Origin: Simplicispira suum
Lineage (GTDB): Bacteria > Pseudomonadota > Gammaproteobacteria > Burkholderiales > Burkholderiaceae_C
DNA: 64,000 bases
Assembly: GCF_003008595.1 (NCBI RefSeq)
Contig: NZ_CP027670.1
Span: 76,078-140,077, forward strand
Direction: 5' to 3'
Shown: positions 37,763 through 63,183 of the stretch, one piece after another
Layout of the letters: every line of letters starts with the position of its first letter
Position numbering within the stretch: position 1 is the stretch's first letter
The notes under the pieces: model-generated
What the model was told of the DNA's origin: nothing
Databases searched by the model: none
What the model saw: only the letters and a program-made list of their open reading frames with translations
Program-made: the position numbers and the translations under genes

Positions 37763-37831
37763 GTGTGCGTAACGCCCTCTCATTCGAGCGGTAGCATGGC
37801 CGTACCTTTCGGGGTAAAACAGCGATTCAGA
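37763..37831 (+). ncRNA. Structured RNA element, copy 1 (promoter-proximal)
   Basis: Shortest copy of the repeated element: GTGTGCGTAACGC hairpin, GCGG-TAGCATGG-CCGT stem-loop (37788-37803), then TACC/GGTA hairpin (37803-37816) and AAACAGC. It lacks the two upstream stem-loops of later copies because it starts about 13 nt after the predicted transcription start. Confidence 0.65.
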
Positions 37832-38230
37832 GAGCCTCCGTAATGGATGCCAGACGTACGATGTTCATTCCGTATGTCTCAGCGTGCACCAGATGCATGC
37901 ACAGATTCAAGCCTCAGGCTTGCATCACAGGAGCGAAGCTCCCAACCCCTTCACTGCGGGTAAATGCAGTTGGGTTGTGAGCACAAATAAGACCTGGACT
38001 TCTTCCCGTTGGGATGAAGATGGGCATTCGCTTTCAACTCTGCCTTCAATGGCATCAAGAACGAAGAGACTTCCTTGTAGGACTCTCTTCCCGCCTGTGC
38101 GTGATGCACGGCCGGTCAAAGCACACCTGACAGACCCGACACCTTTGTGGTGTTTGGCTTGCGCACGTGTGCAATAAACATTGCTTGCTTTTGCAAGTAA
38201 TGGAGCACTCAGTCGAAAGACTGAGCTTCT
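37832..38230 (+). other. Untranslated leader region of the array, no convincing gene
   Basis: About 400 bases with no supported coding sequence; the available open frames lack ribosome sites and have biased composition. It holds small hairpins: AAGCCT/AGGCTT near 37909, GTGC-GTGAT-GCAC near 38098 (close to the conserved GTAAT-loop hairpin of the repeated element), and CTCAGTC-GAAA-GACTGAG near 38206 with a GNRA tetraloop. Could be a regulatory RNA. Confidence 0.45.
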
Positions 38231-38294
38231 AAATCCTCGGGATAGCACATGCCCGAGGGCGTGGTGTTTCCCGAGGCCTTCCTTGGAGTAAATC
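38231..38294 (+). promoter_or_regulatory. Two-hairpin leader (first of the series)
   Basis: Hairpin 1: CCTCGGG (38235-38241) with CCCGAGG (38252-38258), then GTGGTG and a U-rich stretch and TTGGAG before ATG 38295. The second hairpin is weak here. Confidence 0.5.
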
Positions 38295-38375
38295 ATGACC
38301 CTCGTTCTCTTGGCATGCGTTATTACCGGCAGTGCCCTGTCGTACGGCTTGTTCCGCAAGCTCGGCTGGTACTGA
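38295..38375 (+). CDS. 26-residue hydrophobic microprotein
   Basis: MTLVLLACVITGSALSYGLF followed by a basic end. It has SD TTGGAG and a leader of the type that precedes other array genes, which supports expression. A terminator-like hairpin follows 7 nt after the stop. Too short to classify; resembles a single-pass membrane peptide. Confidence 0.5.
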   Translation: MTLVLLACVITGSALSYGLFRKLGWY

Positions 38376-38381
38376 TAAATT

Positions 38382-38415
38382 GAAAGAACATCCTTTCGGG
38401 GATGTTCTTTCTTTT
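38382..38415 (+). terminator. Terminator-like hairpin inside the array
   Basis: A 12-bp perfect stem (GAAAGAACATCC 38382-38393 with 38400-38411) and a TTTTC tail. A functional terminator only about 640 nt into a long array would require antitermination or partial read-through. Confidence 0.6.
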
Positions 38416-38430
38416 CTGGAAGTGGACTTA

Positions 38431-38480
38431 CACCCTGCAGACCTAAAACGTTCGGAAAGATGTTTTAGGTCTGCAGGGTG
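38431..38480. repeat. 19-bp perfect inverted repeat
   Basis: 38431-38449 is perfectly complementary to 38462-38480 around a 12-nt loop. It stands 60 bases before the next small gene. It has no T-tail, so it is not a terminator; it could be a protein-binding site, RNA stabiliser or cruciform. Confidence 0.9.
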
Positions 38481-38539
38481 CCACGGACAGTAAATGTCAT
38501 GTGCGCCCTGCAGGTTTCGCAACTTCGCAGGAGCTCATC

Positions 38540-38617
38540 ATGGAATTGGTTATTCTCAGCCTTTGTGTTTTCGCCGGTCTCCTTATCAGTCGGCCCATCG
38601 TGCGCTTCATGCGTTGA
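38540..38617 (+). CDS. 25-residue hydrophobic microprotein
   Basis: MELVILSLCVFAGLLISRPI then a short basic end; a single membrane helix. SD CAGGAG lies 8 nt upstream. It is the second membrane microprotein in this segment. Function unknown. Confidence 0.45.
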   Translation: MELVILSLCVFAGLLISRPIVRFMR

Positions 38618-38630
38618 AAGTCGCGCTGAT

Positions 38631-38813
38631 ATGAACACCAAGACCACAATGGCCTCCGACCATCTCAAATCGATGTTCACGTCGCTGCCACTCCGCGACG
38701 CTGTGCTTTTGCACAACGGATTACGCAACCCTGAGCCACTAAGCATTGAGTTGCGCGAGAAGTTGCGCTTGGCCCTGCGCCGTACGAACGTGGTGACCAT
38801 TCGTGAACGGTAA
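38631..38813 (+). CDS. 60-residue protein of unknown function
   Basis: Starts at ATG 38631, 13 nt after the microprotein stop. Helical, basic C-terminus (ELREKLRLALRRTNVVTIRE). Weak ribosome site; may be translationally coupled. Directly followed by structured RNA copy 2. Not recognised. Confidence 0.4.
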   Translation: MNTKTTMASDHLKSMFTSLPLRDAVLLHNGLRNPEPLSIELREKLRLALRRTNVVTIRER

Positions 38814-38817
38814 AGCC

Positions 38818-38955
38818 TATCCCCTGCAAAGGGGATGGGTTTTCCAAAACATAGCGACCGTTATGTTTCGGAAAGCCTTTCTAACCTGTGTGCGTAATGC
38901 ACCAGACCTGAAGCGGTAGCTTGGCCGCGCCTAATTAAGGCGACTCAGCATCTCA
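38818..38955 (+). ncRNA. Structured RNA element, copy 2
   Basis: Stem-loops in order: ATCCCC/GGGGAT (38819-38836); TTTCC...GGAAA outer stem enclosing AACATA/TATGTT (38841-38874); GTGC-GTAAT-GCAC (38890-38902); GCGG-TAGCTTGG-CCGC (38913-38928); GCCT/AGGC hairpin; ACTCAGC. Confidence 0.75.
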
Positions 38956-39020
38956 TCAACCCCAACGGGCATGTCCACCCGTTTGGGGTGGCCGTGTCCA
39001 TTTCCACAGAGCAAATGAAC
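38956..39020 (+). promoter_or_regulatory. Two-hairpin leader
   Basis: Hairpin 1: CCCCAACGGG (38960-38969) with CCCGTTTGGGG (38978-38988), one bulge. AGAG (39008-39011) has 9-nt spacing to ATG 39021 and only 3 nt to ATG 39015, which decides the start. Confidence 0.5.
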
Positions 39021-39332
39021 ATGAGCAAATTCATCATCAGCGTTACGTACGAACATCAGGATGAAACAAGCCTCGAATCTGGTGAACCGTATGAACGCGG
39101 GTACGAGATCGAAGGACAAGAAGTCGATGAAGACGAACTCAAGGCGATCGCCAATGAGTACGGCGTCAACGCCGCGTCGAGCACTGTAATAGGACAATTT
39201 ACCTGGTTCAATTCCAGTTCGCCAAGAGAGGATCGTGAGTATTTCGAGAAGGGTATCGAGAAATTCTTTAGTCTTCACATCAAAAAGGGGGACGTGCTGC
39301 ACGCCGCCCGAATCCTTAACATCAAAGGCTAA
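39021..39332 (+). CDS. Acidic protein of unknown function
   Basis: 103 residues, strongly acidic in the first half (HQDETSLESGEPYERGYEIE, VDEDELKAIANEYG). A compact alpha/beta protein is likely. ATG 39021 chosen for ribosome-site spacing. It stands alone between RNA copies 2 and 3. Acidic small proteins on conjugative elements are sometimes antirestriction or DNA mimics, but nothing here proves that. Confidence 0.55.
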   Translation: MSKFIISVTYEHQDETSLESGEPYERGYEIEGQEVDEDELKAIANEYGVNAASSTVIGQFTWFNSSSPREDREYFEKGIEKFFSLHIKKGDVLHAARILNIKG

Positions 39333-39339
39333 AAGCCAG

Positions 39340-39483
39340 TAACCTTTTGCTCCCGCAGAAGGTTTGCTCAAGCGCCTTCTGGGCCCTTCATCAAACCTAT
39401 TTGCTGTGTGTAGGGTAATCCTGCCACTCAATTACTCCTGGCACGGGGAGTCAAAACAACCGGCAACAAGGCTCGAAAGAGCA
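39340..39483 (+). ncRNA. Structured RNA element, copy 3
   Basis: AACCTT/AAGGTT hairpin near 39341-39363; GGTTTG...CAAACC outer stem; AGG-GTAAT-CCT (39412-39422); CTCC-TGGCACGG-GGAG (39435-39450); AAACAACCGGCA; GCTC-GAAA-GAGC (39471-39482). It belongs to the subtype with no third stem-loop between loop 2 and the GNRA hairpin. Confidence 0.75.
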
Positions 39484-39545
39484 TCCACCCACACGGGATG
39501 ACTATCCCGTAGGGGTATGGCATCTCGCTTTTCAAAGGAGAGACC
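39484..39545 (+). promoter_or_regulatory. Two-hairpin leader of the RecE-like gene
   Basis: Hairpin 1: ACGGGAT (39493-39499) with ATCCCGT (39504-39510), flanked by ACCC/GGGG. Hairpin 2: TGG...CTC before and GAG...CCA after a U-rich loop, SD AAAGGAG. Confidence 0.6.
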
Positions 39546-40397
39546 ATGCTGATGAAAACAGGTCTAGTCGATATTCCGGCCTCGGAATATCACTCGGACA
39601 AGGACATCGTGGGGCATTCAGCGCTTGTCGAAATGCTGCGCTCACCGGCGCACTTCATGCACCGGCTGAACACGCCTTACGAACCCACCCCGGCCATGCA
39701 ATTTGGCACAGCCGTCCACACCGCCATCCTGGAGCCCTCGCGGTTCCACACGTTGTACGCGGTGCAGCCCAAGTTCGACCGTCGCACCAAGGATGGCAAG
39801 GCACTTGCCCTTGCTTGGGAAGAAGCCAACCGAGGCGTTCTGCCCATCGAGCAAGACGATCTGAACAGGATCACCCGCATTCGTGAGTCGATCAATCGGC
39901 ACGTGGATGCGTCGGCATTGCTGCAATCGAGCATCACCGAGCAAAGCTATTTCTGGACGGATCATGAAACGGGCATTCAATGCCGGATCCGAGCCGACTT
40001 GTTGAAGCTCGCTGCCGATGGCTGCATTGAAGCGATCGGGGACCTGAAGACGACGCTTGATGCGTCGCGCGACGGGTTCGTACGCGCGATAGACAAATTT
40101 GGCTACGACCTTCAGGCGGCGTTCTACGTCGATGGGATCAAGCACCTCACGGGGCGCGAGGTTCCGTTCTACCTGATGCCTGCGGAGAGCAACGCACCGC
40201 ATGGTGTTGCGCTGTACCGCGTTGGCCCGAAGAGCATTGAGGTGGGGCGCGCGAAATACCGCGCCGCACTGCAGTTGCTTCAGTGGTGCCGGGAACACAA
40301 TTCCTGGCCCAGCTACCAGCCGTTCGGCGAAGCTGAAGAGATCGAGATTTCAGACTGGAGTCTCAGACGCGCCGCGGCTGAGTTTGAAGATGAGTAA
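39546..40397 (+). CDS. RecE/exonuclease VIII-like nuclease (PD-(D/E)XK, DUF3799 type)
   Basis: 283 residues. Typical pattern: SALVEMLRSPAHFMHRLN, FGTAVHTAILEP, CRIRADLL, then the PD-(D/E)XK core IGDLKTTLDASRDGFVRAI and YDLQAAFYVDG. 5'-3' double-strand exonuclease that makes 3' single-stranded tails for the RecT annealase encoded next, a pairing also found as exo/bet in SXT and IncA/C elements. Confidence 0.85.
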   Translation: MLMKTGLVDIPASEYHSDKDIVGHSALVEMLRSPAHFMHRLNTPYEPTPAMQFGTAVHTAILEPSRFHTLYAVQPKFDRRTKDGKALALAWEEANRGVLPIEQDDLNRITRIRESINRHVDASALLQSSITEQSYFWTDHETGIQCRIRADLLKLAADGCIEAIGDLKTTLDASRDGFVRAIDKFGYDLQAAFYVDGIKHLTGREVPFYLMPAESNAPHGVALYRVGPKSIEVGRAKYRAALQLLQWCREHNSWPSYQPFGEAEEIEISDWSLRRAAAEFEDE

Positions 40398-40404
40398 GTA
40401 ATCC

Positions 40405-40487
40405 GCCCATTTTTGGGTGCCCAAGCGGGAACGCTATCCCGCTAGGGGTGGTGTTCCCTTTTTTTGTTAGTTCAAAAGGAGATCACC
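40405..40487 (+). promoter_or_regulatory. Two-hairpin leader of recT
   Basis: Hairpin 1: AGCGGG (40424-40429) with CCCGCT (40438-40443). Hairpin 2: GGTG...CACC, closing at the ATG, with a long T-run and AAAAGGAG in the loop side. Confidence 0.6.
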
Positions 40488-41615
40488 ATGAATCAAGTTC
40501 TCAAAACCATCCGTACCGCAGCACCTGCGCGGCGCGATCCGCAGGAGCTCAACTTCCCAGCAATGCTGGAACGCAGCAAAGCGGAAATTGCTCGGGCGCT
40601 CCCCAAGCACATTGACCCGGATCGCATGTTGCGCATCGCCTTGACGGCGTTTCGTACCACGCCAGCACTGGCCAAGTGCAAGCCCGTTTCGGTTCTGGCG
40701 TCGATCATCCAGGCGTCCCAGTTGGGCCTGGAAGTAGGCCAGAACGGCGAGGCCCACCTGGTCCCGTTCAAAGAAGAATGCCAGATGATCCCTGGCTATC
40801 AAGGCCTGATGAAACTCGCTCGCAACAGCGGGTTCGTCAAGGACATCTATGCACACGAGGTCCGCGAAAACGACCACTTCGTGATGCGGTTGGGCCTGGA
40901 ACGCCACCTGGACCACCACCCCATGCCTGGGCGCGGCGGCTTTCCTGCATCGGAAGCGATGCGGGGCGAAGTCGTGGGCTTCTACGCCGTGGGTGTTCTG
41001 AAGGACGGAACGCCGACCTTCGTCGCAATGTCAGTCGAAGACGTTTATCAAATCCGCGACAACAGCAAGGGCTACCAAGCCGCCAAACGGTATGGCAAGG
41101 CTTCGACGTGGGACACCGACTTCATCCCCATGGGCAAGAAGACCGTGATCCGAGCGCTTTGCAAGATGATGCCCAAGTCCGCCGAGCTGAGCGCTGCCAT
41201 GGCGCTCAACGATGTGGCCGATCGCGGCCAATCCCAGAACATCAGCCTCAAAGAGGCTGCAGATGGGAGCTACGAGGCGCCCACTGTGGTGGACGAGGAG
41301 ACCGGGGAAATCATCGGCAATGAGGCCGAACAGTCGGCTCCCGGTGCGTACGCACAACCCCAGCAAGCGCAGCCGCCCAAAGAACCGCAACCTCCGGTGC
41401 AAGCGCAAAAAAATGCGCCCAAACCCCGTGAAGACGTGCTGACCAAAGTCATCGGTTCGATGACGGCGGCTTGCACCGAAGATGACCTCAACGAGGCCTA
41501 TATCCGCGCAGAAACCCAGGTCTCCGGGGTGGACCGCGAGATCCTCGACAAGGAATATGAAAAGCGCCTCGAAGAAATTCGTAAAGGCGATGGACAAGTG
41601 GGCTCCTTGCTCTGA
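40488..41615 (+). CDS. recT: RecT single-strand annealing protein
   Basis: 375 residues from ATG 40488. RecT core: PALAKCKPVSVLASIIQASQ, LGLEVGQNGEAHLVPF, ECQMIPGYQGLMKLARNSG, IPMGKKTVIRALCKMMPKS. The C-terminal 110 residues are Gln/Pro-rich linker plus a small helical end domain. Anneals and exchanges single strands produced by the RecE-like nuclease; may act with the SSB encoded downstream in plasmid recombination or establishment. Confidence 0.95.
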   Translation: MNQVLKTIRTAAPARRDPQELNFPAMLERSKAEIARALPKHIDPDRMLRIALTAFRTTPALAKCKPVSVLASIIQASQLGLEVGQNGEAHLVPFKEECQMIPGYQGLMKLARNSGFVKDIYAHEVRENDHFVMRLGLERHLDHHPMPGRGGFPASEAMRGEVVGFYAVGVLKDGTPTFVAMSVEDVYQIRDNSKGYQAAKRYGKASTWDTDFIPMGKKTVIRALCKMMPKSAELSAAMALNDVADRGQSQNISLKEAADGSYEAPTVVDEETGEIIGNEAEQSAPGAYAQPQQAQPPKEPQPPVQAQKNAPKPREDVLTKVIGSMTAACTEDDLNEAYIRAETQVSGVDREILDKEYEKRLEEIRKGDGQVGSLL

Positions 41616-41636
41616 CATGTCCTTTCCATGAAACAT

Positions 41637-41785
41637 CCCCCGGCGCAAGCCTGGGGGTGTTTTTCAGCAGGCATTGCATGCAGTGTCTGCCGAAAAACAG
41701 GTTTTCTCTCCAGTGCGTAATGCACCAGGACTTGAAAGGGTAGTCTGGCCCGTCTCTTCAGAGCGAATCAGCAATTCACTTGTCC
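41637..41785 (+). ncRNA. Structured RNA element, copy 4
   Basis: First hairpin CCCCC/GGGGG (41637-41657) followed by TGTTTTTC, so it may also terminate recT. Then TTTTTC...GAAAAA outer stem (41660-41697), GTGC-GTAAT-GCAC (41713-41725), GGG-TAGTCTGG-CCC (41738-41751), CTC/GAG hairpin, AATCAGCAATTC. Confidence 0.7.
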
Positions 41786-41841
41786 AACCCACGGGGGCCC
41801 ATCCCTCGCGGGATGACGCCCTCTCATTTCGAGAGGTCACA
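41786..41841 (+). promoter_or_regulatory. Two-hairpin leader
   Basis: Hairpin 2 is strong: CCTCTC (41820-41825) with GAGAGG (41831-41836), extended by TGA/TCA; it places the SD GAGAGG inside the stem just before ATG 41842. Confidence 0.6.
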
Positions 41842-42504
41842 ATGTTTTTCAGAAAAAAGGTCGATTGCCGCTCTAAAGAGGCAATGACCACGTTTTTGCT
41901 CACCCACAACCGCTACCAGGTGGACAACCGGGCGATTGGTTCTGGCACCTCGTATGCCAACAAAATCAAGCTGCACAACCTCGGTCTGCGAGGCTCTCAG
42001 CTTGAAAAGGCCTTTGACATTTACGCGGCGGATGACGATTTCTGGCCCCAAATCTCGGGCCCGATCCGAGCCTTCGAACATGAAACCGATGCCGCCTACT
42101 CAGTGGCCCGCATGGGTCGCAGTGGGGGTTATCTGGTGCTTGCCAGGGCTCAATACGAGTACCCCGGCTACAAGAGCACCTGTTCGAAGTGCGGAAAGCT
42201 CAACTTCCAGGAAGCGGGGCCAGAGGCCAAATGCGGGGTCTGCCATAGCCCTCGCGTGAACCTCAAAAAACCGCTGCGCTGGATCCGTACCACCGGGTCG
42301 AGCATCGATCACGCAATGGCGGCCGAGGACTTCATGGACCTATCCATGGAGGACTTGAAGCTCAAGGTGGATCTCGTGCTCCGGTTCGACGAAGTATGCG
42401 ACTCTGTTCGTGAGAGGTTTCTTTGCCTACTCGACAACTACATGGTCGTCGAAAAAACCATCATGGTGCCAACCAAGGTTCGACACCTTGAACCAGTTCT
42501 CTAA
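41842..42504 (+). CDS. Zinc-ribbon protein of unknown function
   Basis: 220 residues. A four-cysteine zinc ribbon (CSKCGKLNF ... KCGVCHSPR) sits near residues 115-140 between an N-terminal alpha/beta region and a helical C-terminus (SIDHAMAAEDFMDLSMEDLK). Possible nucleic-acid-binding accessory of the recombination genes around it. ATG 41842 lies right after the leader hairpin; the longer opening upstream covers RNA copy 4 and is not coding. Confidence 0.6.
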   Translation: MFFRKKVDCRSKEAMTTFLLTHNRYQVDNRAIGSGTSYANKIKLHNLGLRGSQLEKAFDIYAADDDFWPQISGPIRAFEHETDAAYSVARMGRSGGYLVLARAQYEYPGYKSTCSKCGKLNFQEAGPEAKCGVCHSPRVNLKKPLRWIRTTGSSIDHAMAAEDFMDLSMEDLKLKVDLVLRFDEVCDSVRERFLCLLDNYMVVEKTIMVPTKVRHLEPVL

Positions 42505-42515
42505 CGCGGGCTGTC

Positions 42516-42596
42516 ATGAAACTTGTGTGCTGCGGCTGCGCCGCTTCCTACAAGGGCTGCTTCATCCACCACCACATGGATGGGCGCATTTCTTAG
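42516..42596 (+). CDS. Cys/His-rich 26-residue microprotein (tentative)
   Basis: MKLVCCGCAASYKGCFIHHH then six more residues: four cysteines and three histidines, a density suggesting metal binding. Starts 11 nt after the previous stop. No strong SD, so expression would depend on coupling. Could be chance. Confidence 0.3.
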   Translation: MKLVCCGCAASYKGCFIHHHMDGRIS

Positions 42597-42685
42597 CAGT
42601 CTCCCTCGCTGGAGGCACACCAGGCCCGATCGTGGCGCGCTGCCCAACTGGCAATCACGCGCATGTGAAGTCCGTTCGCAAACCC

Positions 42686-42723
42686 CGATGCCAGTAGGCA
42701 TCGATTTCAATCAGGAGTAAATC
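42686..42723 (+). promoter_or_regulatory. Two-hairpin leader of ssb
   Basis: Hairpin 1: CGATGCC-AGTA-GGCATCG (42686-42703). Hairpin 2: GATTT (42703-42707) with AAATC (42719-42723), holding the SD AGGAG in its loop and ending exactly at the ATG. Confidence 0.7.
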
Positions 42724-43155
42724 ATGTTTTCAGTTTCCAAAACCATTTTGATCGGCCGTATGGGGCGCGACCCGGAGGTGCGCGTGTTCCCTTCGGGGGA
42801 TCGTGTCGCTACCTTCTCGGTAGCCACCTCGGAGCGCTGGAAAGACAAGCAATCGGGCGAGTGGAAAGAGCTCACCGAATGGCACCGCGTCGTTGTGCGC
42901 GGGCCGTCTGCAGATTACGCCGAGCGCAACCTCCGAAAGGGGGACTCCGTGTACATCGAGGGCGTCATTCGCACGCGGAAATGGCAGGATCAAGGCGGTA
43001 ACGATAAATCGTCCACCGAGATTCACGCCAACGAGGTCAAGACGCACGCCAAGGCCAAGGCCAAGGATGCCTCTACCCCGGAAATCCAAGGCGGGAGTGA
43101 GGCCCCTGAGGGCAGCCATGGCTCGTTCGAAGGCGCAGACAATTTCCAATGGTGA
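42724..43155 (+). CDS. ssb: Single-stranded DNA-binding protein
   Basis: 143 residues, OB-fold: KTILIGRMGRDPEVRVFPSG, VATFSVATSERWKDKQSGEW, TEWHRVVVRG, YIEGVIRTRKWQD. The linker is Lys/Ala then Gly/Glu/Ser-rich, and the tip reads DNFQW rather than DIPF, so contacts with host partners may differ. Plasmid SSBs protect incoming single strands during conjugation. Confidence 0.95.
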   Translation: MFSVSKTILIGRMGRDPEVRVFPSGDRVATFSVATSERWKDKQSGEWKELTEWHRVVVRGPSADYAERNLRKGDSVYIEGVIRTRKWQDQGGNDKSSTEIHANEVKTHAKAKAKDASTPEIQGGSEAPEGSHGSFEGADNFQW

Positions 43156-43172
43156 TCTGAAGCCATCAATCA

Positions 43173-43300
43173 AACCCTGCTGGGGCCACCCCAGCGGGGT
43201 GGTCCTTTGCAGTTCTCTCATCGCCCTTCTCGGGGCACTCCAAAGTGCCTCACGGGCGTTTTGGTGTGCCCCGCGTCGGGCGTAACCAAAGGAGGCAGCA
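43173..43300 (+). promoter_or_regulatory. Hairpin-rich leader of the primase gene
   Basis: GCTGGGG-CCA-CCCCAGC with flanking CCC/GGG (43173-43199) looks like hairpin 1 of the common leader but is followed by about 100 nt with further hairpins (GGCACT/AGTGCC near 43233; TTTGGT/ACCAAA bracketing 43258-43292). SD GGAGG precedes ATG 43301. A variant arrangement. Confidence 0.45.
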
Positions 43301-44446: not shown

Positions 44447-44457
44447 GGAGGCGGATC

Positions 44458-44757: not shown

Positions 44758-44765
44758 TTCAAACG

Positions 44766-44938: not shown

Positions 44939-44942
44939 ATTT

Positions 44943-45002
44943 CAACCCTCTGGGGCATCATCCCCAACAGGGGTTGGTGCTTCGGTTTTTTTGGAGTACC
45001 TC
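44943..45002 (+). promoter_or_regulatory. Two-hairpin leader
   Basis: Hairpin 1: CCCTCTGGGG with CCCCAACAGGGG. Hairpin 2: GGTGCTTC (44976-44983) pairs over eight positions (two G-U) with GGAGTACC (44993-45000), so the SD itself is in the stem, beside a run of seven T. Confidence 0.65.
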
Positions 45003-45434: not shown

Positions 45435-45443
45435 GGAATTGCC

Positions 45444-55765: not shown

Positions 55766-55774
55766 AGTGAACTC

Positions 55775-55925: not shown

Positions 55926-55927
55926 TT

Positions 55928-56308: not shown

Positions 56309-56537
56309 CCTTCGCGTCCTCGCCAGTGAAAAGCGGCAACGCTTTTTGGGGCACCTTCGGGCAACGGACGTGCTCCCGCCATTTCACCTTGTCAGGGTGG
56401 CACAGGAAGAGGGCTACAGCGTGCTCATGCGTGCTGCAGCTCTACGCAATCTCACTGCCTGCGCACCTATCGAGGTCACCAAAGGCCGTCCGTACGCTGA
56501 GCGACGGCGCCTGGTCAGAGCCCATTTCGGGATCTGA
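56301..56537 (+). CDS. Basic helical 78-residue protein
   Basis: ATG 56301 inside the end of the previous gene. Rich in Arg and Leu (ASEKRQRFLGHLRATDVLPP, MRAAALRNLTACAPIEVTKG). Possible DNA-binding protein; no family match. Confidence 0.5.
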   Translation: MNNLRVLASEKRQRFLGHLRATDVLPPFHLVRVAQEEGYSVLMRAAALRNLTACAPIEVTKGRPYAERRRLVRAHFGI

Positions 56538-56550
56538 AGGCCACTTCACA

Positions 56551-56611
56551 CAACCCATGCGGGGACGCACCCCGCAAGGGGTGTGCCTTCGCTCTTTCCA
56601 AAGGAGTCATC
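56551..56611 (+). promoter_or_regulatory. Two-hairpin leader of the C5 methyltransferase
   Basis: Hairpin 1: TGCGGGG with CCCCGCA, flanked by CC/GG. Hairpin 2 is weak here; SD AAAGGAG. Confidence 0.5.
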
Positions 56612-58021
56612 ATGAAGGCATACGAAACGACGAAGATAGGCACGAACCGCGGCTGCCCGAGACTGTGGCTGCAAGGCCGCAAGCCGCGCGCGGCAGGGTT
56701 CCTGCCTGGCCAGCGCTTCAACGCCCGCAAGGACGAAGAGCGTGGCATGCTGGTACTGGAGCTCTCTGACATCGGTTCGCGAGTGGTCTCGCGCAAGGTC
56801 AAGGGGGACACGCAAGAGCCCATCATCGACATCAATTCGATGGAGGTGCTTTCAGTTCTCTCTGGCCATGAAGTCGTCCGCGTGATCGTGCAGGCCCGGC
56901 GAATCATCGTCATGCCGCTGGCCAGCGAGATTGCGAAAAGCGATCGTCTGGGCCGCCTGCAGCACAAGCTGCAAACGGGCGAACCCCTGGCGGTCGGCTC
57001 GATCTCGCACGGCGGCGGAGTGCTCTCGCATGCACTGCACGCGGGGTTACAGGACGCCGGCGTCGCAACTCACTTGGCGTTCGCCAATGACATCAGGCCA
57101 GAGCTGCTGGAGCAAGCAGGGGAGCACAACAGCGCATGGAGCGAGAGCACCATCGCCGTTGCAGCGCCCATGCAGGAACTGGCATTCGACGCCTGGGCCA
57201 TGTCTCAGCTTCCTAAAGTCGAGATCATGGAAGCTGGCATACCCTGCAGCGGCGCATCCGTCGCTGGGCGTGCCAAGCGCGGCCTGCAACACCCTGAAGC
57301 TCACCCGGAAGTGGGGCATCTGGTGGTGGCGTTTCTCGCCATCATCGCCAAGGTGCAACCGGCCGTGGTGCTTCTGGAAAACGTCAAGCCGTACATGGCC
57401 ACGGCGTCCATGAGCATTCTGCGGAACCAACTGCGTGATCTCGGATACCGGGTCCATGAGGAAGTCTTGCAGGCTTCCGACTGGAATGCGCTGGAGCACC
57501 GGGAGCGCATGTGCATGGTGGCAGTCACAGAAGGCATGTCGTTCGACTTTTCAGCGCTGCAAAGGCCTGAGAAGCATGAACGGAGAATCGCCGGAGTGCT
57601 CGATGCCGTGCCCGAGGACGCGGATTGCTGGAGCGAAATGCAAGGCCTCAAAACCAAGCAGGAGCGCGACCAGGAGGCCGGCAAGGGCTTTGCCATGCAG
57701 ATCATCACCGGCAGCGACATTCGTTGCCCGACGATCACCAAAGGCTACAGCAAGGTTCGCTCTACGGATCCGAAGCTTCGCCATCCCACGAATCCCAATT
57801 TGCTTCGCCAGTTCACACCTGGGGAGCATGCAAGGATCAAGGGGGTGCCGGAGCAACTGGTTCAGGGCCTCTCGGCCACATTGGCGCACGAGCTGCTGGG
57901 CCAGTCGATTTGTTACGAGCCTTTCCGGGCCGTGGCAATGGTGCTCGGCAAGATGCTCAAAGCCACCCACGCGGCGCAGTCGGTGCAAACCGAATCACCG
58001 CTACTTCAACTTGTCGGCTGA
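56612..58021 (+). CDS. C5-cytosine DNA methyltransferase with SymE/AbrB-like N-terminus
   Basis: 469 residues. Residues 1-100 (RLWLQGRKPRAAGFLPGQRF ... LELSD) resemble SymE-type swapped-hairpin AbrB domains. Then a diverged C5-methylase: motif I ISHGGGVLSHALHAGLQDAG, motif IV GIPCSGAS (about residue 209, catalytic Cys kept, PCQ changed to PCS), motif VI VVLLENVKPYM, motif VIII EHRERMCMVAV, and C-terminal LAHELLGQSICYEPFRAVAM. Orphan, no endonuclease neighbour. The fusion could let the protein read DNA or RNA near its target. Confidence 0.75.
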   Translation: MKAYETTKIGTNRGCPRLWLQGRKPRAAGFLPGQRFNARKDEERGMLVLELSDIGSRVVSRKVKGDTQEPIIDINSMEVLSVLSGHEVVRVIVQARRIIVMPLASEIAKSDRLGRLQHKLQTGEPLAVGSISHGGGVLSHALHAGLQDAGVATHLAFANDIRPELLEQAGEHNSAWSESTIAVAAPMQELAFDAWAMSQLPKVEIMEAGIPCSGASVAGRAKRGLQHPEAHPEVGHLVVAFLAIIAKVQPAVVLLENVKPYMATASMSILRNQLRDLGYRVHEEVLQASDWNALEHRERMCMVAVTEGMSFDFSALQRPEKHERRIAGVLDAVPEDADCWSEMQGLKTKQERDQEAGKGFAMQIITGSDIRCPTITKGYSKVRSTDPKLRHPTNPNLLRQFTPGEHARIKGVPEQLVQGLSATLAHELLGQSICYEPFRAVAMVLGKMLKATHAAQSVQTESPLLQLVG

Positions 58022-58036
58022 AGCCGGCAAATTTCA

Positions 58037-58096
58037 CCACCCATGCGGGGCCTTTCCCGCAAGGGGCGGGCTCCGCGTTTTTTCATGGAGTTCAAA
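58037..58096 (+). promoter_or_regulatory. Two-hairpin leader
   Basis: Hairpin 1: TGCGGG with CCCGCA. Hairpin 2: GGGCTCC with GGAGTTC, seven pairs with two G-U, enclosing six T; the SD GGAG is in the stem. Confidence 0.6.
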
Positions 58097-58375
58097 ATGG
58101 ATGAATTCGTTCAGCTAGTGCGCAAGTGCGCAGAGCAGGGGGAGGCGCTTGGTCGAATGATGGCGAGCGCCGGCACGGTGGAACCGATGTACCTGTACTT
58201 CAGGCCGTCTGAACCAGGCAAGCCTGGCGCGCTTTTCCTGGTGCGTGACAGTGCCCCGGTTTCACCCGGACTGCAGCTCGCCACCGGCGAAGGGCTGCGC
58301 TGCAACGTGCCGTACGACAACTACTTTCAGTGGGTGTACGACCGCTCCAAACGCTTGCCAGTTCTGGCCTTCTGA
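58097..58375 (+). CDS. Protein of unknown function
   Basis: 92 residues; FVQLVRKCAEQGEALGRMMA helix then a beta region (GALFLVRDSAPVSPGLQLAT). Followed after 11 nt by the next gene. Confidence 0.5.
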   Translation: MDEFVQLVRKCAEQGEALGRMMASAGTVEPMYLYFRPSEPGKPGALFLVRDSAPVSPGLQLATGEGLRCNVPYDNYFQWVYDRSKRLPVLAF

Positions 58376-58386
58376 AGGAGAGCCAA

Positions 58387-58611
58387 ATGACGAATCAACC
58401 CGTTCAACCGGGGCACATCCGCCTCGTCAAGCTGAAAGTGGAAGGACGGCTGCAAGTCGGCGATCAGGTCGAGACATCAAGGCTCGGCGTGTGCACCGTA
58501 CTCAGCATTCAATCTGCAGACAGCATCATCGTGACAACCTCCAGCAAGCAGTGTTTCAACCTGTCTGGACTGGGGTTCAGGGCACGCGTGGTTCAAGCCA
58601 CAACGGCCTGA
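58387..58611 (+). CDS. Small beta-rich protein of unknown function
   Basis: 74 residues, SD GAAGGAG. Sequence HIRLVKLKVEGRLQVGDQVE, GVCTVLSIQSADSIIVTTSS suggests an SH3-like or OB-like barrel. Unknown role. Confidence 0.5.
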   Translation: MTNQPVQPGHIRLVKLKVEGRLQVGDQVETSRLGVCTVLSIQSADSIIVTTSSKQCFNLSGLGFRARVVQATTA

Positions 58612-58627
58612 GCCGACAAACATCTTC

Positions 58628-58681
58628 TCAACCCACCGGGGTCACTCCCGGTTGGGAGTGCGCCCGGACTCAAGGACAACC
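58628..58681 (+). promoter_or_regulatory. Leader with hairpin 1 only
   Basis: ACCGGGG..CTCCCGGTTGGG forms the first hairpin; no clear second hairpin. SD AAGGA before ATG 58682. Confidence 0.4.
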
Positions 58682-58795
58682 ATGCGCACGAAAATCAAAG
58701 CCATCTGGAGTTCGCCCGAATGCCGGGTGGACATCCTCACCATCGCAGCAGGCATCATCGGCCTCGCGGTGAATATCAACTACTATTTCGGTTGA
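58682..58795 (+). CDS. 37-residue single-pass membrane microprotein
   Basis: Basic start (MRTKIKAIW) then DILTIAAGIIGLAVNINYYF. A leader and SD precede it and RNA copy 10 follows at once. Third membrane microprotein of the array. Confidence 0.45.
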   Translation: MRTKIKAIWSSPECRVDILTIAAGIIGLAVNINYYFG

Positions 58796-58803
58796 AAATG
58801 GGC

Positions 58804-58957
58804 GGCCTTGCACTTGTGCAGGGCTCTTCCCGAAGCCGCTCGCCACTGGTAGCATGCGGCTTCGGAAAGAATTCCACCAACCTGCGTAATGCAGACGGTA
58901 GATCGGTAGCTGGCCGCGCTCTTCGGAGCCAAACAGCAATCTTGAGCGCAAGCTCTT
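58804..58957 (+). ncRNA. Structured RNA element, copy 10
   Basis: CCTTGCAC/GTGCAGGG (58806-58823); CTTCC...GGAAAG enclosing GAAGCCGC/GCGGCTTC (58826-58869); CTGC-GTAAT-GCAG (58882-58894); CGG-TAGCTGG-CCG (58904-58916); GCTC-TTCG-GAGC (58918-58929); AAACAGCAATC; GAGC-GCAA-GCTC (58944-58955). Confidence 0.8.
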
Positions 58958-58961
58958 CAAC

Positions 58962-59020
58962 AACCCCAGGGGTCTCTATCCCCGCTGGGGATGGTGGCTC
59001 CATTTTTTATGGAGAAATTC
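58962..59020 (+). promoter_or_regulatory. Two-hairpin leader
   Basis: Hairpin 1: CCCC..GGGG with CCCC..GGGG. Hairpin 2 short: GCTCC with GGAG over ATTTTTTAT. Confidence 0.5.
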
Positions 59021-60061
59021 ATGGGAGCCACCATCATTACCGACAAGCTCGTCGCCGCCACAAAGGGCGCGGATGGCAAGCTGTACTACTTCCTCTACGA
59101 GGAAACGTACGAAAAGAACGTGTACCCCCACACCCCTCATTGGGGCTGTTGGTACATCGGGACGATCGAAGGCGCTTTGAGGCGAATCTTTCTGGCCGCT
59201 GGATCCTGCGAGAGCGGGATGCTTCGCAGCAGGAGAGGCGACATCAAACCCGAGAACTTCGTCAAGGATTGGTACAAGGAATTGGCCAACCCGGTCCTCC
59301 TTTCATTACCGAACCTGAAAATGAAGATGCACGGGGGCTTCGACGCCACCGTGCCCACTGAAAAACAGGAGTTTGTCGTGGCCGCTTTCAAGCGTCATGG
59401 CCACCCTGATCTCGCCCAACAGCTTCTGTCGGGCGGGGTGCTTTCGCTGTCCTTCAGCGAACACGCCGCAATGCTCAGCGAAATCTACAACGGGAATGAC
59501 CTGGGGCCTTGGCGCCTTGTGAGAGGCACACCGCATTCGGCCGAGAGGACCGCGGAATACGGCTACAAGCCGAAGCCTGTGCGGCACATTGATTTGCCGA
59601 AGCCGCCGAGCATCATGCGAGTCCCGAATGGCAAATTTTTGGTGGCCGACGAACAGGGAGCCTGGCGCAATCGCGGCGAGAAATGGGAGATCCTGCAGGA
59701 CTTCATCACTTCATGCTGGCGTACCGAGCTTGCTGAACCTGGAAGCTACAAGGTACGCATTGAGGCCCTCCGTGAGGCTCTGGATGTTGCACCTCCGATG
59801 CCACCTGGGATGAGCGTTGCTGTGGATGAGCGCGTCGAACTGGACGGCTACTTGAAAAGCACGGTCGAGGGGCTTCGGTACCTTGGGACCCCGACTAGCA
59901 CGGGCTACACCATCGACGTGGGTGCTGATGTGTTGCAGGACTCAAACCTGCTCTGGCGCATCTGCCACCTGCCTCGTGTTTGCACATCCTGGGAAATCGG
60001 GAAGTGCGTCGATGAGGCTGCTGATGACTTCGCAAGCAGGCAGATGGACATGTTCGTCTGA
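59021..60061 (+). CDS. Protein of unknown function
   Basis: 346 residues. Starts MGATIITDKLVAATKGADGK; the middle carries HGHPDLAQQLLSGGVLSLSF and a RHIDLPKPPSIMRVPNGKFL strand-rich part; Trp-rich (PHWGCWYIGTIEGAL). No motif I can place. ATG 59021 is next to the leader; ATG 58991 lies in the leader. Confidence 0.55.
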   Translation: MGATIITDKLVAATKGADGKLYYFLYEETYEKNVYPHTPHWGCWYIGTIEGALRRIFLAAGSCESGMLRSRRGDIKPENFVKDWYKELANPVLLSLPNLKMKMHGGFDATVPTEKQEFVVAAFKRHGHPDLAQQLLSGGVLSLSFSEHAAMLSEIYNGNDLGPWRLVRGTPHSAERTAEYGYKPKPVRHIDLPKPPSIMRVPNGKFLVADEQGAWRNRGEKWEILQDFITSCWRTELAEPGSYKVRIEALREALDVAPPMPPGMSVAVDERVELDGYLKSTVEGLRYLGTPTSTGYTIDVGADVLQDSNLLWRICHLPRVCTSWEIGKCVDEAADDFASRQMDMFV

Positions 60062-60087
60062 CAGGCTGCGAGGCTTGAACTTCAATT

Positions 60088-60147
60088 TTTAACCCGAACG
60101 GGTACCGGCCCGTTGGGCTGGTCTCGTTCATTTTCTTGGAGAGACCT
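60088..60147 (+). promoter_or_regulatory. Two-hairpin leader
   Basis: Hairpin 1: ACGGG (60098-60102) with CCCGT (60109-60113), flanked by CCC/GGG. Hairpin 2: GGTCTC (60120-60125) with GAGACC (60141-60146), perfect, one base before ATG 60148. Confidence 0.7.
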
Positions 60148-60447
60148 ATGAGTAAGCAGATAAGCGCAAAAGAACTGGCAGAAATCGTCACGAAACTGCT
60201 GACCAAAGACAGCGGCGAACTTGATGATTCCGCCATATTTTCGAGCTTCATGACCGAAATAGCTAACGTGATCTGCAATCACTGCGGCGGCGAGGTCAAG
60301 AACCCGGCATCGCCACTCGATGAAGTGTGGTACGTCGGCATTCATGGCAACGACAGCCTTCCCGATGCATTCGGTGGGATTTGGAGGGAGTACGACCCGG
60401 ATGGAGAACTAACAAACAAGAGTGATCTACTGGACCCGGAGGCCTGA
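60148..60447 (+). CDS. Acidic protein of unknown function
   Basis: 99 residues from ATG 60148. Helical N-terminus (AKELAEIVTKLLTKDSGELD), then ICNHCGGE. Ends 1 nt before the next ATG. Unknown. Confidence 0.5.
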   Translation: MSKQISAKELAEIVTKLLTKDSGELDDSAIFSSFMTEIANVICNHCGGEVKNPASPLDEVWYVGIHGNDSLPDAFGGIWREYDPDGELTNKSDLLDPEA

Positions 60448-60448
60448 C

Positions 60449-60856
60449 ATGTATCCAACACGAGTAATTGTGCAGGCATCAGCCCTTCGAGTCGGCGACG
60501 TTCTGTGCTTCGCTAACCCGAAGAATGAAATTGAAATCGAGTCGATCACCCACCGTGAGGTAGATGGTCGGATCGGCTTCCATGCAAATGACGACACGTG
60601 GGTGAATCACTATTACCCGAAAGATCGTGTCACTGTCGTGAATCGCATGGGGCTGGTTAAAAAGGCCGGTGCATGTCGATACGGCCCTGGTGGTGCACTG
60701 GTGACGGACGAGCCTCTTGAAGGTTTCGATCTTGCACCTCTGCCGGATGACGCTGCTGTGTTTTACGGCGGCAAATACCTGATCGCCGAGTCGATGAGCT
60801 ACAGAACCGCTCAAAAAATTGCTGAGCTACTTGGGCTCGTGATGTACCAAGGATAG
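60449..60856 (+). CDS. Protein of unknown function
   Basis: 135 residues from ATG 60449, one base after the preceding stop. Starts VIVQASALRVGDVLCFANPK, a Hint/SH3-like beta opening; DDAAVFYGGKYLIAESMSYR near the end. Unknown function. Confidence 0.5.
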   Translation: MYPTRVIVQASALRVGDVLCFANPKNEIEIESITHREVDGRIGFHANDDTWVNHYYPKDRVTVVNRMGLVKKAGACRYGPGGALVTDEPLEGFDLAPLPDDAAVFYGGKYLIAESMSYRTAQKIAELLGLVMYQG

Positions 60857-60890
60857 CGCAAAGACCGCGAGGTCGATGCACACCAGAACC

Positions 60891-61036
60891 CCTCCAGCCC
60901 TTGTGCTGGAGTGGTTTCCCAGAGCGTCCAGAAAGGGGCGCTGCGGGAAACCAGCATTTGACGCAGGCGGGGTAATCCCTTCTGTTCAATGTTCCTGGCT
61001 CGGGGAACTCAAACAACCGGCAACAAAGCTCGCAGA
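60891..61036 (+). ncRNA. Structured RNA element, copy 11 (degenerate 3' hairpin)
   Basis: CTCCAGC/GCTGGAG (60892-60911); TTTCCC...GGGAAA (60915-60950); GGG-GTAAT-CCC (60969-60979); GTTCC-TGGCTCGG-GGAAC (60991-61008). The final hairpin reads GCTC-GCAG-AAATC and no longer pairs, unlike copies 7 and 8. Confidence 0.75.
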
Positions 61037-61101
61037 AATCATTTCAACAACTGCTCAGGCCAGCGGTATCGCTGTCCCGTGCAAATTCCAAAGGAAAAAT
61101 C
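61037..61101 (+). promoter_or_regulatory. Divergent leader of the ParB-like gene
   Basis: Only CAGCG-GTAT-CGCTG remains as a hairpin; no second hairpin. SD AAAGGA. One of the few array genes with an atypical leader. Confidence 0.4.
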
Positions 61102-62037
61102 ATGACCGAAAAAATTCACGGGTCTTTCAAGGCCCTGGCCGGCAACTCTCAAGAGACCGGTGTCAAGAAGACGGACCTCTATAAGGTCCCACCCGCAAAA
61201 TTGATGGAAGAGCCTGGCTTCAACGAACGGGACTACAACGACCCGGACGTTCAAGCCCAGATCGAGGCGTTCGCGCAAGCCTATGCGGCGGGTCGCTACG
61301 TGCCGCCGCTCGCGGTTCGCATCGATTCGGCCACCGGGGACATCATCCTTGTTGATGGCCACCAGCGTCGCCGCGGTGCGTTGCTTGCCATCGAACGTGG
61401 CGCCACGATCACGCATCTGGAATGTCTTCCCTTCAGGGGGAACGACGCCGATCGCGTGGTTTGCATGCTCACCAGCTCCGAGGGGCTGAAGCTCAAACCC
61501 GTTGGCATTGCTCGCGGGTATTTGCGGCTTCTGCGCATGGGCCTGGATGTTTCCGAGATCGCGCGCAGTGTTGCCAAGACGGCTCAGCACGTAGAGTCGA
61601 TGTTGGTGCTGGCCGAGGCCAACACTGACGTTCAGGCTCTCGTGAACCAAGGTGCAGTCTCTGCGACCATGGCCATTGAAGTCGTGCGCAAGCACGGTGA
61701 CAAGGCCGGTGAGATCCTGGGCGCAAAACTCAAGGAAGCCAACGCCCGAGGCCAGACCAAGGTCAAGCCTTCGGCGATCAAGGAATGGGCACCTCCGCGG
61801 GCTCTGGCCACGAAGCTCTACCACTCGGTCGGATCCGCTCTCGGGCAGATCACGCAATCCAGCGAAGTGCAGCAATTGCTCGCCGATCTGGAGGCCAACG
61901 GTAGTGACGCGGCGGCGGGGAAGACCGTACCCGTGAACGCCGCCGCTCTCATCGAGCTGATGCGTCTCTTCAAAGAAACCGAGGAGGCTCGGACCAAGAA
62001 GAGCGAACCCAAGAAAGACGAGCAGCCGGAAGATTGA
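61102..62037 (+). CDS. ParB-like nuclease/partition-domain protein
   Basis: 311 residues. ParB N-terminal domain: PPLAVRIDSATGDIILVDGH then the QRRRGALLAIERG box; a helical DNA-binding middle (MGLDVSEIARSVAKTAQHVE, an HTH) and a charged C-terminus. No ParA is next to it, so it may be a ParB-family regulator or element-maintenance protein rather than a partition factor. Confidence 0.75.
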   Translation: MTEKIHGSFKALAGNSQETGVKKTDLYKVPPAKLMEEPGFNERDYNDPDVQAQIEAFAQAYAAGRYVPPLAVRIDSATGDIILVDGHQRRRGALLAIERGATITHLECLPFRGNDADRVVCMLTSSEGLKLKPVGIARGYLRLLRMGLDVSEIARSVAKTAQHVESMLVLAEANTDVQALVNQGAVSATMAIEVVRKHGDKAGEILGAKLKEANARGQTKVKPSAIKEWAPPRALATKLYHSVGSALGQITQSSEVQQLLADLEANGSDAAAGKTVPVNAAALIELMRLFKETEEARTKKSEPKKDEQPED

Positions 62038-62040
62038 ACC

Positions 62041-62103
62041 ATCAACCCTTAGAGGGCGCATGCCCTCTTGGGTTGGCGCCTTTCTTCATTGAAAGGAACA
62101 GGA
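62041..62103 (+). promoter_or_regulatory. Two-hairpin leader with the longest first stem
   Basis: Hairpin 1: CAACCC (62043-62048) + AGAGGGC (62051-62057) with GCCCTCT (62062-62068) + GGGTTG (62070-62075). Hairpin 2: CCTTTC (62079-62084) with GAAAGG (62091-62096), placing the SD in the stem. Confidence 0.7.
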
Positions 62104-62352
62104 ATGCTCAGACAGCGCATGCGCGGTGCTCTCGGCGATTTCAAAGATGCGTTGGCGCGGCCGACACTGAAGCAGAAGGAGGCCTACGGGCGTCTGGCTC
62201 ATACCCTCTGTGTGGCCTGCTGCGTGGGAGCGATCACTGTCCTCTTTGGGGCAGCGTTCTCATTCTGGACCACCCTCTTGTACGTATGCTCCCTGATGAT
62301 TTGGGGTCTGGTACTATTCGTCGCAGGGGCAATCCTCAGCAAAGGAGAATGA
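62104..62352 (+). CDS. Small membrane protein with two membrane segments
   Basis: 82 residues; basic N-terminus, then TLCVACCVGAITVLFGAAFS and TLLYVCSLMIWGLVLFVAGA. Ends 1 nt before the next ATG. Unknown; by position could be an exclusion or envelope protein. Confidence 0.55.
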   Translation: MLRQRMRGALGDFKDALARPTLKQKEAYGRLAHTLCVACCVGAITVLFGAAFSFWTTLLYVCSLMIWGLVLFVAGAILSKGE

Positions 62353-62353
62353 G

Positions 62354-62464
62354 ATGACTGCAGCCTTTCTCATCCTGGGAAGCCTGATTTGTGCAGGCTT
62401 CGTGTATTTGGCTACGCGGGAAACCGGGCCTTCCAAAACTGAAGACAAGGCACACACCGCCTGA
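62354..62464 (+). CDS. 36-residue membrane microprotein
   Basis: ATG 62354, 1 nt after the previous stop, with GGAG upstream. MTAAFLILGSLICAGFVYLA then a charged tail. Followed by a strong terminator. Confidence 0.5.
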   Translation: MTAAFLILGSLICAGFVYLATRETGPSKTEDKAHTA

Positions 62465-62492
62465 AAAGCGCCCATCTCGGAACGCTCACATC

Positions 62493-62530
62493 ATCCCGTG
62501 AATCGACTGCGCTCGATCGCGGGATTTTTT
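62493..62530 (+). terminator. Rho-independent terminator inside the array
   Basis: ATCCCG (62493-62498) with CGGGAT (62520-62525), inner ATCGA/TCGAT, and six T. Same-strand genes continue beyond it, so transcription must either re-initiate or be antiterminated. Confidence 0.75.
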
Positions 62531-62595
62531 ATTCACCCTGACGGGCACCTGTTGCCCTCCGGGCCAGTGTCCGTCTCTTTCGCAGGAGAACGGAA
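62531..62595 (+). promoter_or_regulatory. Two-hairpin leader
   Basis: Hairpin 1: CCC..ACGGGC with GCCC..GGG. Hairpin 2: TCCGT-CTC (62570-62577) with GAG-A-ACGGA (62586-62594), eight pairs and one bulge, SD AGGAG in the stem. Confidence 0.65.
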
Positions 62596-62976
62596 ATGTC
62601 GAATCTCACCCTGGAATCGGTGCCCGCTTACGAGCGCATGCTGCCCGAGCCCCTGACACGACTGAGGCTGGCCGAGGAGTTCTACAACGAGCTATCGGAC
62701 AGCGTTGAAGTGCTCTCAGATATTGTTGAGCAGCATGGCGCGCGCACGCTCTCAGACCTATTCCACTTGCACGCAGCCATCATGAGCAATGGCTTCATTG
62801 ATGCCTGGCCGGATTCCGCTGTGCTTGATGTTGTCTCGCTGTTGCCCTCGGCCGAGCGCTGGCTTGCCTATGCCAGTGTTTACGATGAATGCGGAGAGAT
62901 AAAAAGATCCATTTTTAGCAAGATGCAGGCTCAAATACCGGACGAACAGAACGTGGAGTCGCAGTATCTAAGCTGA
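62596..62976 (+). CDS. Helical acidic protein of unknown function
   Basis: 126 residues, predicted all-alpha (LTRLRLAEEFYNELSDSVEV, ARTLSDLFHLHAAIMSNGFI). Unknown. Lies directly after a terminator. Confidence 0.5.
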   Translation: MSNLTLESVPAYERMLPEPLTRLRLAEEFYNELSDSVEVLSDIVEQHGARTLSDLFHLHAAIMSNGFIDAWPDSAVLDVVSLLPSAERWLAYASVYDECGEIKRSIFSKMQAQIPDEQNVESQYLS

Positions 62977-63025
62977 AACCACGCTGCCGATGAGCCCCGA
63001 AGGCTCGTTGTCGGTGACAAAGCGA

Positions 63026-63183
63026 ACGCCCTGCTCCCCTCGGGGTTGCAGGGCTTTCCAAAGCCCCTGGAAAACCGGGCGCTTCGGAAAGCATTCACGC
63101 CCATCAGCCTAGTGCAGATGGTTTGAAACGGTAGCTTGGCCGTGCCCTTCGAGGCAAATCAGCATTTCTGCTCCCGCGAGCAT
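63026..63183 (+). ncRNA. Structured RNA element, copy 12
   Basis: GCCCTGC/GCAGGGC (63028-63054); CTTTCC...GGAAAG (63054-63091); the GTAAT hairpin is degenerate; ACGG-TAGCTTGG-CCGT (63128-63143); TGCC/GGCA (63143-63156); AAATCAGCATTTC; GCTC-CCGC-GAGC (63170-63181). Confidence 0.7.

Follow-up and report, generated by a model that had tools for sequence, protein, structure and literature searches.

The 64,000-base stretch of Simplicispira suum DNA analysed here (the window) carries a one-directional gene array, starting about 37.7 kb in, along which an RNA unit is repeated; that the unit is a conserved structured RNA is strongly supported. Sequence analysis establishes a folded RNA, promoter-like sites ahead of the head copies, and leaders resembling terminators that occur only within the array. 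The RNA probably either helps transcripts through these stop-signal-like leaders or cuts them into units, and we tentatively favor a reading in which the array is a single-promoter operon and the unit would be an antiterminator with built-in cutting. All coordinates are window positions (window = G000:C2:76078-140077), and features lie on the + strand unless stated otherwise. The genome has 4.15 Mb in three contigs, one of which, 140,077 bases long, ends with the window; F-type transfer genes and a TraI_2 relaxase are encoded there.

A preliminary description of this DNA had placed twelve copies of the unit in the window, and all twelve are matched by R1, a covariance model made from an alignment of 14 sequences (E 1.7e-20 to 4.4e-4). 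The input consisted of eight type A copies from the plasmid itself—six in the window and two past its end—and six copies from Dechloromonas, Rhodocyclus, and locus L012; seven of the twelve window copies are type A, six of these were in the training set, and the other six window copies were not. The weakest matches, copies 1 and 3 (E 4.6e-5 and 4.4e-4), score little better than one spurious match on the antisense strand (E 4.5e-4 at L010:4499), and they also rest on reading of the sequence. R1 finds two more copies past the contig end (L007 2422 and 3848), giving 14 in total if the contig is circular.

Unit 1, the head copy, consists of the small hairpin and pseudoknot only (37763-37824; R1 match 37727-37824). 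The type A copies that follow it are unit 2 (38810-38950; 91.8 bits), unit 4 (41637-41773; 95.3 bits), unit 5 (44766-44911; 95 bits), unit 9 (55775-55907), which has the top score of 100.1 bits and serves as our example, unit 10 (58804-58938; 78.2 bits), and unit 12 (63026-63164; 95.1 bits), an identical copy of which is present on pALIDE01. Type B copies, marked by ACAACCGGC, are unit 3 (39340-39465; 28 bits), with a degenerate long hairpin, and units 6 (48430-48560; 38.7 bits), 7 (50812-50941; 34 bits), 8 (53454-53584; 35.7 bits), and 11 (60891-61022; 36.1 bits). Units 7, 8, and 11 differ from the others in that about 100 bases of them are nearly the same in the alignment, which points to recent copying between sites.

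Each full unit has the same order of elements: a GC hairpin after a stop codon (H0), a long hairpin (P0), a linker of about 15 nucleotides (nt), a small hairpin (P1'), a stem with a conserved loop (S1), an optional hairpin (P2), an A-rich segment, and a 3' strand (S2); a further hairpin and then the gene leader follow. The parts of unit 9 are H0 at 55776-55795, P0 (GGUUUUCC...GGAAAACC) at 55796-55834, the linker at 55835-55847, P1' (GUGC-GUAAU-GCAU) at 55848-55860, S1 (GCGG/CCGC with loop CAGCUUGG) at 55871-55886, P2 at 55887-55898, and S2 (CAGC, which can pair with GCU(U)G in the loop) at 55903-55906. A hairpin of at least 5 bp directly precedes P0 in 48 of 50 rows, against 156 of 500 random positions. 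Much of this anatomy was anticipated in the preliminary description, with some corrections. Copy 1 (37763) has a promoter-like site in place of the GC hairpin after a stop codon and the TTTCC/GGAAA hairpin. The TTTCC/GGAAA stem, described as an outer stem around the whole element, closes its own hairpin only. The GTAAT loop is exact in 10 of 12 copies, reads GTAAC in copy 1 and CTAGT in copy 12, and occurs in 5 of the 42 R1 matches outside this plasmid and pALIDE01. The AAACAGC-or-alternative motif at the 3' end is present, split three ways (AAACAGC in 3/12, A[AC]TCAGC in 4/12, and ACAACCGGC in 5/12); its potential pairing with the TRGCNYGG loop, which would make a pseudoknot, had been missed.

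The compensatory changes that had been claimed for the unit are plentiful. In the R1-fitted set—60 matches, 57 of them distinct, in an alignment fitted to the structure and with related rows that are not independent—two-sided change occurs in 20 of 23 pairs and in 239 cells, against 70.9 in shuffles, and none of 500 shuffles scored as high. By element, the pairs with two-sided change are 11/11 in P0, 4/4 in P1' (90.8% of cells paired), and 4/4 in S1 (99.0%). Overall, 94.9% of 1206 cells are paired compared with 74.8% in shuffles, and slid registers all score far lower than the true one. A MAFFT alignment, which is not fitted to the model, gives two-sided change in 18 of 27 pairs with 94.6% of 336 cells paired (0/500 shuffles); by number of pair types, 2/500 shuffles do as well. 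In this alignment P2 has two-sided change in 4/4 pairs, among the 8 sequences in which it is present. The folded molecule is the sense RNA, given the excess of G·U over A·C: 58 vs 12 among 1191 cells of the R1 matches, and 15 vs 6 among the 336 cells of the unfitted alignment. The antisense match L010:4499 was dropped from the G·U count, and neither it nor L101:13364 is in the R1-fitted covariation set. Folding energies lie below those of dinucleotide shuffles in 11 of the 12 units (z -2.9 to -5.3; unit 2 at -5.3 and unit 9 at -4.73), although in four of these 11 units 1/200 shuffles folded as well; the core of the head copy is not below its shuffles (z +0.74).

S1 and S2 likely form an H-type pseudoknot, judging from the complementarity of loop and 3' strand. 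The S1 loop is TAGCTGG, the most frequent form, or a relative of it, the 3' strand is CAGC, CCGGC, or another variant, and the pairings take the forms GCTG/CAGC, GC(N)CGG/CCGGC, GCTGG/CCAGC (L104), CCG/CGG (L106), and, in unit 6, GCTGG/CCGGC, where loop and 3' strand could pair without a bulge (GCUGG/CCGGC). A separate candidate, a closing helix between the linker and the third loop suggested by single folds, was ruled out by permutation (own -3.75, swapped -3.80, 1186/2000).

The linker holds a short motif with a possible role in cutting. RNase E recognizes RN|WUU in single-stranded segments, according to the available part of PMC5222698, and RN|WUU occurs in 37 of 50 linkers, which are unpaired by prediction, against a shuffled mean of 6.2; unit 9 is among the linkers without an exact match. 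Two of the 50 rows are head copies let in by the length rule (L012:3104 and L100:7907), and without them the count is 37/48. Among distinct linkers the motif is found in 32 of 43 vs 5.5 expected, and control segments of the same units have it in 2/38 and 1/40. L010:4499 (antisense) and L101:13364 (degenerate) were dropped here, as they were from the counts of hairpins before P0, of S2 permutation, and of the closing helix. The predicted cut falls 10-13 nt before P1', and the head transcript would start, as estimated from -10 positions, about 8-15 nt before the same small hairpin; this proximity is a hint that internal copies may be cut so as to mimic the head 5' end.

Head copies differ from internal ones in what precedes them. 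At the head of the array is a sigma-70-type promoter-like site, TTGACA-16-TAGGAT (37716-37743), the better of only 2 such sites in 37500-64000, where shuffles give 8.5; both lie in 37500-51000 and none in 51000-64000. In six arrays—the present one and those of Dechloromonas, Rhodocyclus, L012, Sulfuricystis, and G106—the first copy lies behind a promoter-like site, and by reading of the sequence the same six first copies are without H0 and P0. The sites are TTGACA-16-TAGAAT in Sulfuricystis (on plasmid pSTJ2, where it is the best in the scan with 11/12 matches), TTGACA-17-TATTTT in G106, TTGCCG-16-TAGAAT in Rhodocyclus, and TTGCAG-16-TAGAAT in Dechloromonas and the closely similar L012; those of the last three have 8-9 of 12 consensus matches and could each, alone, be chance. 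A promoter first and the RNA next, as in RNA processive antiterminators, is thus the layout predicted at head copies.

A leader built as AACCC-GGGG-loop-CCCC-GGGG precedes many genes of the array; a T-run often comes next, and then a Shine-Dalgarno sequence and start codon. We counted leaders with a hand-written pattern, which misses some and matches 127 sense vs 15 antisense. Among the 127, from 17 loci, 71 have a run of at least four T, and 55 have a predicted hairpin directly against the T-run, as in intrinsic terminators. On the array strand of the 140-kb plasmid, all 26 detected leaders lie inside the array and 15 are terminator-type; on the opposite strand the pattern matches at 4 places, none of terminator type, and 3 of these places are within the array. 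Leader loops are more complementary to their own downstream strands than to swapped ones, and so are downstream strands to their own Shine-Dalgarno regions (0/2000 swaps as good in either case); predicted occlusion of the Shine-Dalgarno sequence is little above shuffles (100/127 vs 265/381). Terminator-like leaders include the one before RecT (40420-40490), where a 14-bp stem abuts T7 ahead of a Shine-Dalgarno sequence and ATG, and those directly after unit 5 (44943-45005), before an AAA ATPase gene (48969-49031), and of a gene without its own unit (52618-52681). A strong intrinsic-terminator-like hairpin also lies between units 1 and 2 (38382-38411; 13 pairs, then TTTTCTGG).

For a conjugative element, long blocks of genes have to stay off until all of them are turned on at once. 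In the mechanism that we propose, a single promoter at the head of the array would drive a long operon, with the unit serving as a sense-strand RNA element. The pseudoknot half would act on the passing RNA polymerase, as put, conAn2, and canT RNAs do, and bring about read-through of the leader terminators; in internal copies the upstream half (GC hairpin, long hairpin, and RNase E-type linker) would cut the transcript, so that the RNA of each cut copy would begin some 10-13 nt from the small hairpin, in close likeness to the head copy. Stray transcription would then be kept out of the operon, and its transcript would be split into separate mRNAs. The implied generalization—RNA-only control of an operon of about 30 kb in Gram-negative conjugative elements, with one cassette for both termination control and mRNA punctuation—is possible, though we regard it as doubtful.

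Several observations weigh against antitermination with cutting. The second pseudoknot stem, S2, is nearly invariant (95.0% of cells paired) with few independent changes, and its permutation test is weak (57/2000); the cutting motif is missing from 13 of 50 linkers. pSTJ2 shows no promoter depletion (6 found, 6.9 expected; 6 found, 5.0 expected), and the Dechloromonas locus, whose head site is too weak for the scan, has 0 found and 3.0 expected. There is a hairpin-less copy without a clear promoter in G215 and an internal hairpin-less copy in L111 (6722). A simple terminator scan gives 25 sense and 25 antisense, with no strand excess, and in G083, G130, G150, and G308 the first unit found is preceded by leaders, 9 in total; the stretches from these four may not include the head copy, or it may have escaped recognition. 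Known antiterminator RNAs, moreover, act from few copies. The putRNA works over at least 10 kb without its tether (accessible text of PMC9378689). Since few copies suffice in the known cases, the 14 copies here are left unexplained.

Some of the same evidence fits other explanations. The unit may be a cassette for processing and stability only, in which the upstream hairpins would cap the 3' end, RNase E would cut the linker, and the small hairpin and pseudoknot would protect the new 5' end, the leaders being independent attenuators or translation locks. The enrichment and position of the linker motif and the hairpin directly before P0 in 48/50 rows speak for this, as do head copies that need no 3' cap and have none; such a cassette would be a natural tool for dividing polycistronic mRNA. 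We nevertheless find it rather unlikely. It leaves the array-only leaders of this plasmid unexplained, so short a motif could have some other role, and it is not obvious that a 5' end would be protected when about 10 nucleotides there are unpaired. Less probable again, though to be taken seriously, is a regulatory operator: a plasmid or host protein, or a ligand, would bind the pseudoknot close to the 5' end and control the leader behind it, in the way that gp32 of phage T4 acts at the pseudoknot of its own message. The compact H-type geometry, the conserved loop (mostly TAGCTGG), and the A-rich third loop suit a binding site; SSB, RecT, and nuclease genes make up part of the array core, and the preference of leader loop and downstream strand, and of anti-Shine-Dalgarno and Shine-Dalgarno sequences, for their own partners (0/2000 each) suits a regulated leader. 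However, no candidate binding protein was identified, occlusion of the Shine-Dalgarno sequence barely exceeds shuffles, and the T4 pseudoknot is followed by unstructured RNA, whereas here a hairpin leader follows the unit.

Two further explanations are disfavored, and we consider both highly improbable. Recruitment of a NusG paralogue, in the manner of RfaH and ops, is suggested by GCGGTAGC, which occurs in several type A copies and which we take to resemble the ops element; yet the genome has a single NusG-domain match, on contig C1, with none on the plasmid contig, and S1 varies while keeping its pairing, unlike a fixed DNA motif. A Frpo-type single-stranded DNA promoter of the leading region, folded in the transferred strand, would suit the leading-region-type genes in the arrays (SSB here, ArdC-like and RadC on pSTJ2), but the strand that folds is the sense strand and not the transferred (template) strand (G·U 58, A·C 12), and internal units show no promoter-like site in a scan that does not look for hairpin promoters. 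What places antitermination with cutting first is the layout: a promoter, an RNA element, and a row of terminator-like leaders is the arrangement of processive antitermination as described in the available texts on pLS20, Tn916, and HK022. The many copies and the cutting motif are unlike those three systems, so we rank antitermination with cutting first, cutting and capping second, and the operator third.

The array encodes a PD-(D/E)XK nuclease-like protein, RecT, SSB, a primase-like protein, and DNA methyltransferases. The nuclease-like gene (DUF3799; 39546-40397) has a unit just upstream, as it does in three other arrays, and the single-strand binding protein gene (42724-43155) belongs to the conserved array core. 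The order microprotein, nuclease, RecT, unnamed protein, SSB, and primase-like protein is conserved across carriers, with units at matching places; the microprotein reading frame, of up to 38 codons, lies near the array head (38501-38617) and has a match in 5 of the 11 other arrays compared. Divergent from the head promoter is a putative AcaB-like regulator gene (36693-37691, - strand), with a weak match (E 0.0031, 17.7 bits vs a cut-off of 27); pSTJ2 has an annotated AcaB family regulator in the same place, also divergent from the array head.

Beyond this plasmid the unit is scattered. Among 399 genomes of the order, 9 have R1 matches at E <= 1e-3, the present one included, and these belong to 8 of 159 genera; a sample of the class gave this genome only (1/369), both searches having stricter filters that lose weak matches. 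Six of the nine genomes have at least two matches (own 9, G055 5, G083 4, G130 4, G106 2, G189 2), and stretches fetched from carrier genomes hold more in some cases. Named carriers are Dechloromonas sp. SSD3, Rhodocyclus purpureus, pALIDE01, and pSTJ2 of Sulfuricystis; a DNA search of plasmids with a unit returned pALIDE01 and pSTJ2, one record each, and two other queries had no match. Several neighborhoods show further features. L012 is filed as a Bryobacterales metagenome-assembled genome, with an array close to that of Dechloromonas, and may be a mis-binned betaproteobacterial contig. tRNA genes adjoin units in the G055 and G130 arrays (L081:665-736 and L092:2256-2327), and a HEARO RNA above cut-off (93.7 bits) lies directly behind a unit in G083 (L088:1658-1894). 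An sbcD RNA above cut-off is found at L043:15917-16066, in a Cupriavidus locus with a related ATPase and no significant R1 match. On pALIDE01 two IS21-family elements lie just upstream of a shortened array (L060:10307-15959), and at the start of an IMG/VR contig (L115:1-128) stands the pseudoknot portion of a unit, with an array-type leader after it.

The claim that the unit belongs to no named family holds insofar as no Rfam family reached its gathering threshold in the window; three of the twelve copies, though, weakly resemble the DUF3085 RNA (RF02959, a Cis-reg family). At E up to 5, the window gave only these sub-threshold matches and a chance sucC match inside a gene. They lie at 44876-44954 (unit 5), 58904-58972 (unit 10), and 63129-63200 (unit 12), with 24.8-27.7 bits against a gathering cut-off of 40.6. 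Genome-wide at a lax limit, nothing passes the cut-off; the best matches are unit 10 with 27.3 bits (E 0.02) and unit 14 with 23.6, and a chromosomal place scores 23.5, so the resemblance is near chance level at that scale. The DUF3085 RNA does have the same order of parts over 76 positions—a CGGuAGCUGG..CCGG hairpin, a small hairpin, a CCAGC strand, a hairpin, and CAACCC..CGGG—and its AGCUGG and CCAGC could pair as in the unit; its model, in contrast, is without the H0, P0, and P1' parts. By score the unit is not the DUF3085 RNA, while the shared order makes distant kinship plausible.

Searches with RF02959 elsewhere gave no match in 20 related 3-kb loci at E up to 1, none at the set limit in 60 relatives, and none at the set limit in 250 genomes of the order (the own genome included in both), where controls were silent too and absence is not shown. 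The DUF3085 RNA lies upstream of DUF3085 genes; a DUF3085 gene (PF11284) has no match in the present genome, and such genes occur in 7 of 250 genomes, one locus of which (L067, among parts of loci read by eye) has a leader of the array type. The DUF3085 protein is enriched in broad-host-range plasmids, often next to RadC (accessible part of PMC12826799). If the unit is an antiterminator, a function would be in hand for a structured RNA that falls below every Rfam threshold, and perhaps for the DUF3085 RNA.

No description of the array RNA was found in the open-licence literature among the matches listed, and no described antiterminator family matched at threshold in Rfam, whose antiterminator content was not checked. 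The mRNA of T4 gene 32 has an H-type pseudoknot operator near its 5' end, before the gene of a DNA-binding protein; the present unit, in contrast, is followed by a hairpin leader and repeated along the operon. The putRNA of phage HK022 lies downstream of an early promoter and before genes preceded by terminators (accessible text of PMC9378689), but it is about 70 nt long with two stem-loops and two copies per genome, whereas here there is likely a pseudoknot and up to 14 copies. More than 20 terminators lie in the conjugation operon of pLS20, whose leader contains an antiterminator RNA (PMC8955417, in its available part); conAn2 of pLS20 and canT of Tn916 are RNAs that each open a long operon of a mobile element, again one with terminators (available text of PMC8955417 and PMC11658703), and their likeness to our unit is drawn from layout. 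Both come from Gram-positive hosts and are not described as repeated in the available text, which adds that conAn also needs the ConAn1 protein. If it proves to be an antiterminator, the unit would give conAn and canT a counterpart in Gram-negative bacteria, one present in many copies and found here and there among betaproteobacterial plasmids and genomes.

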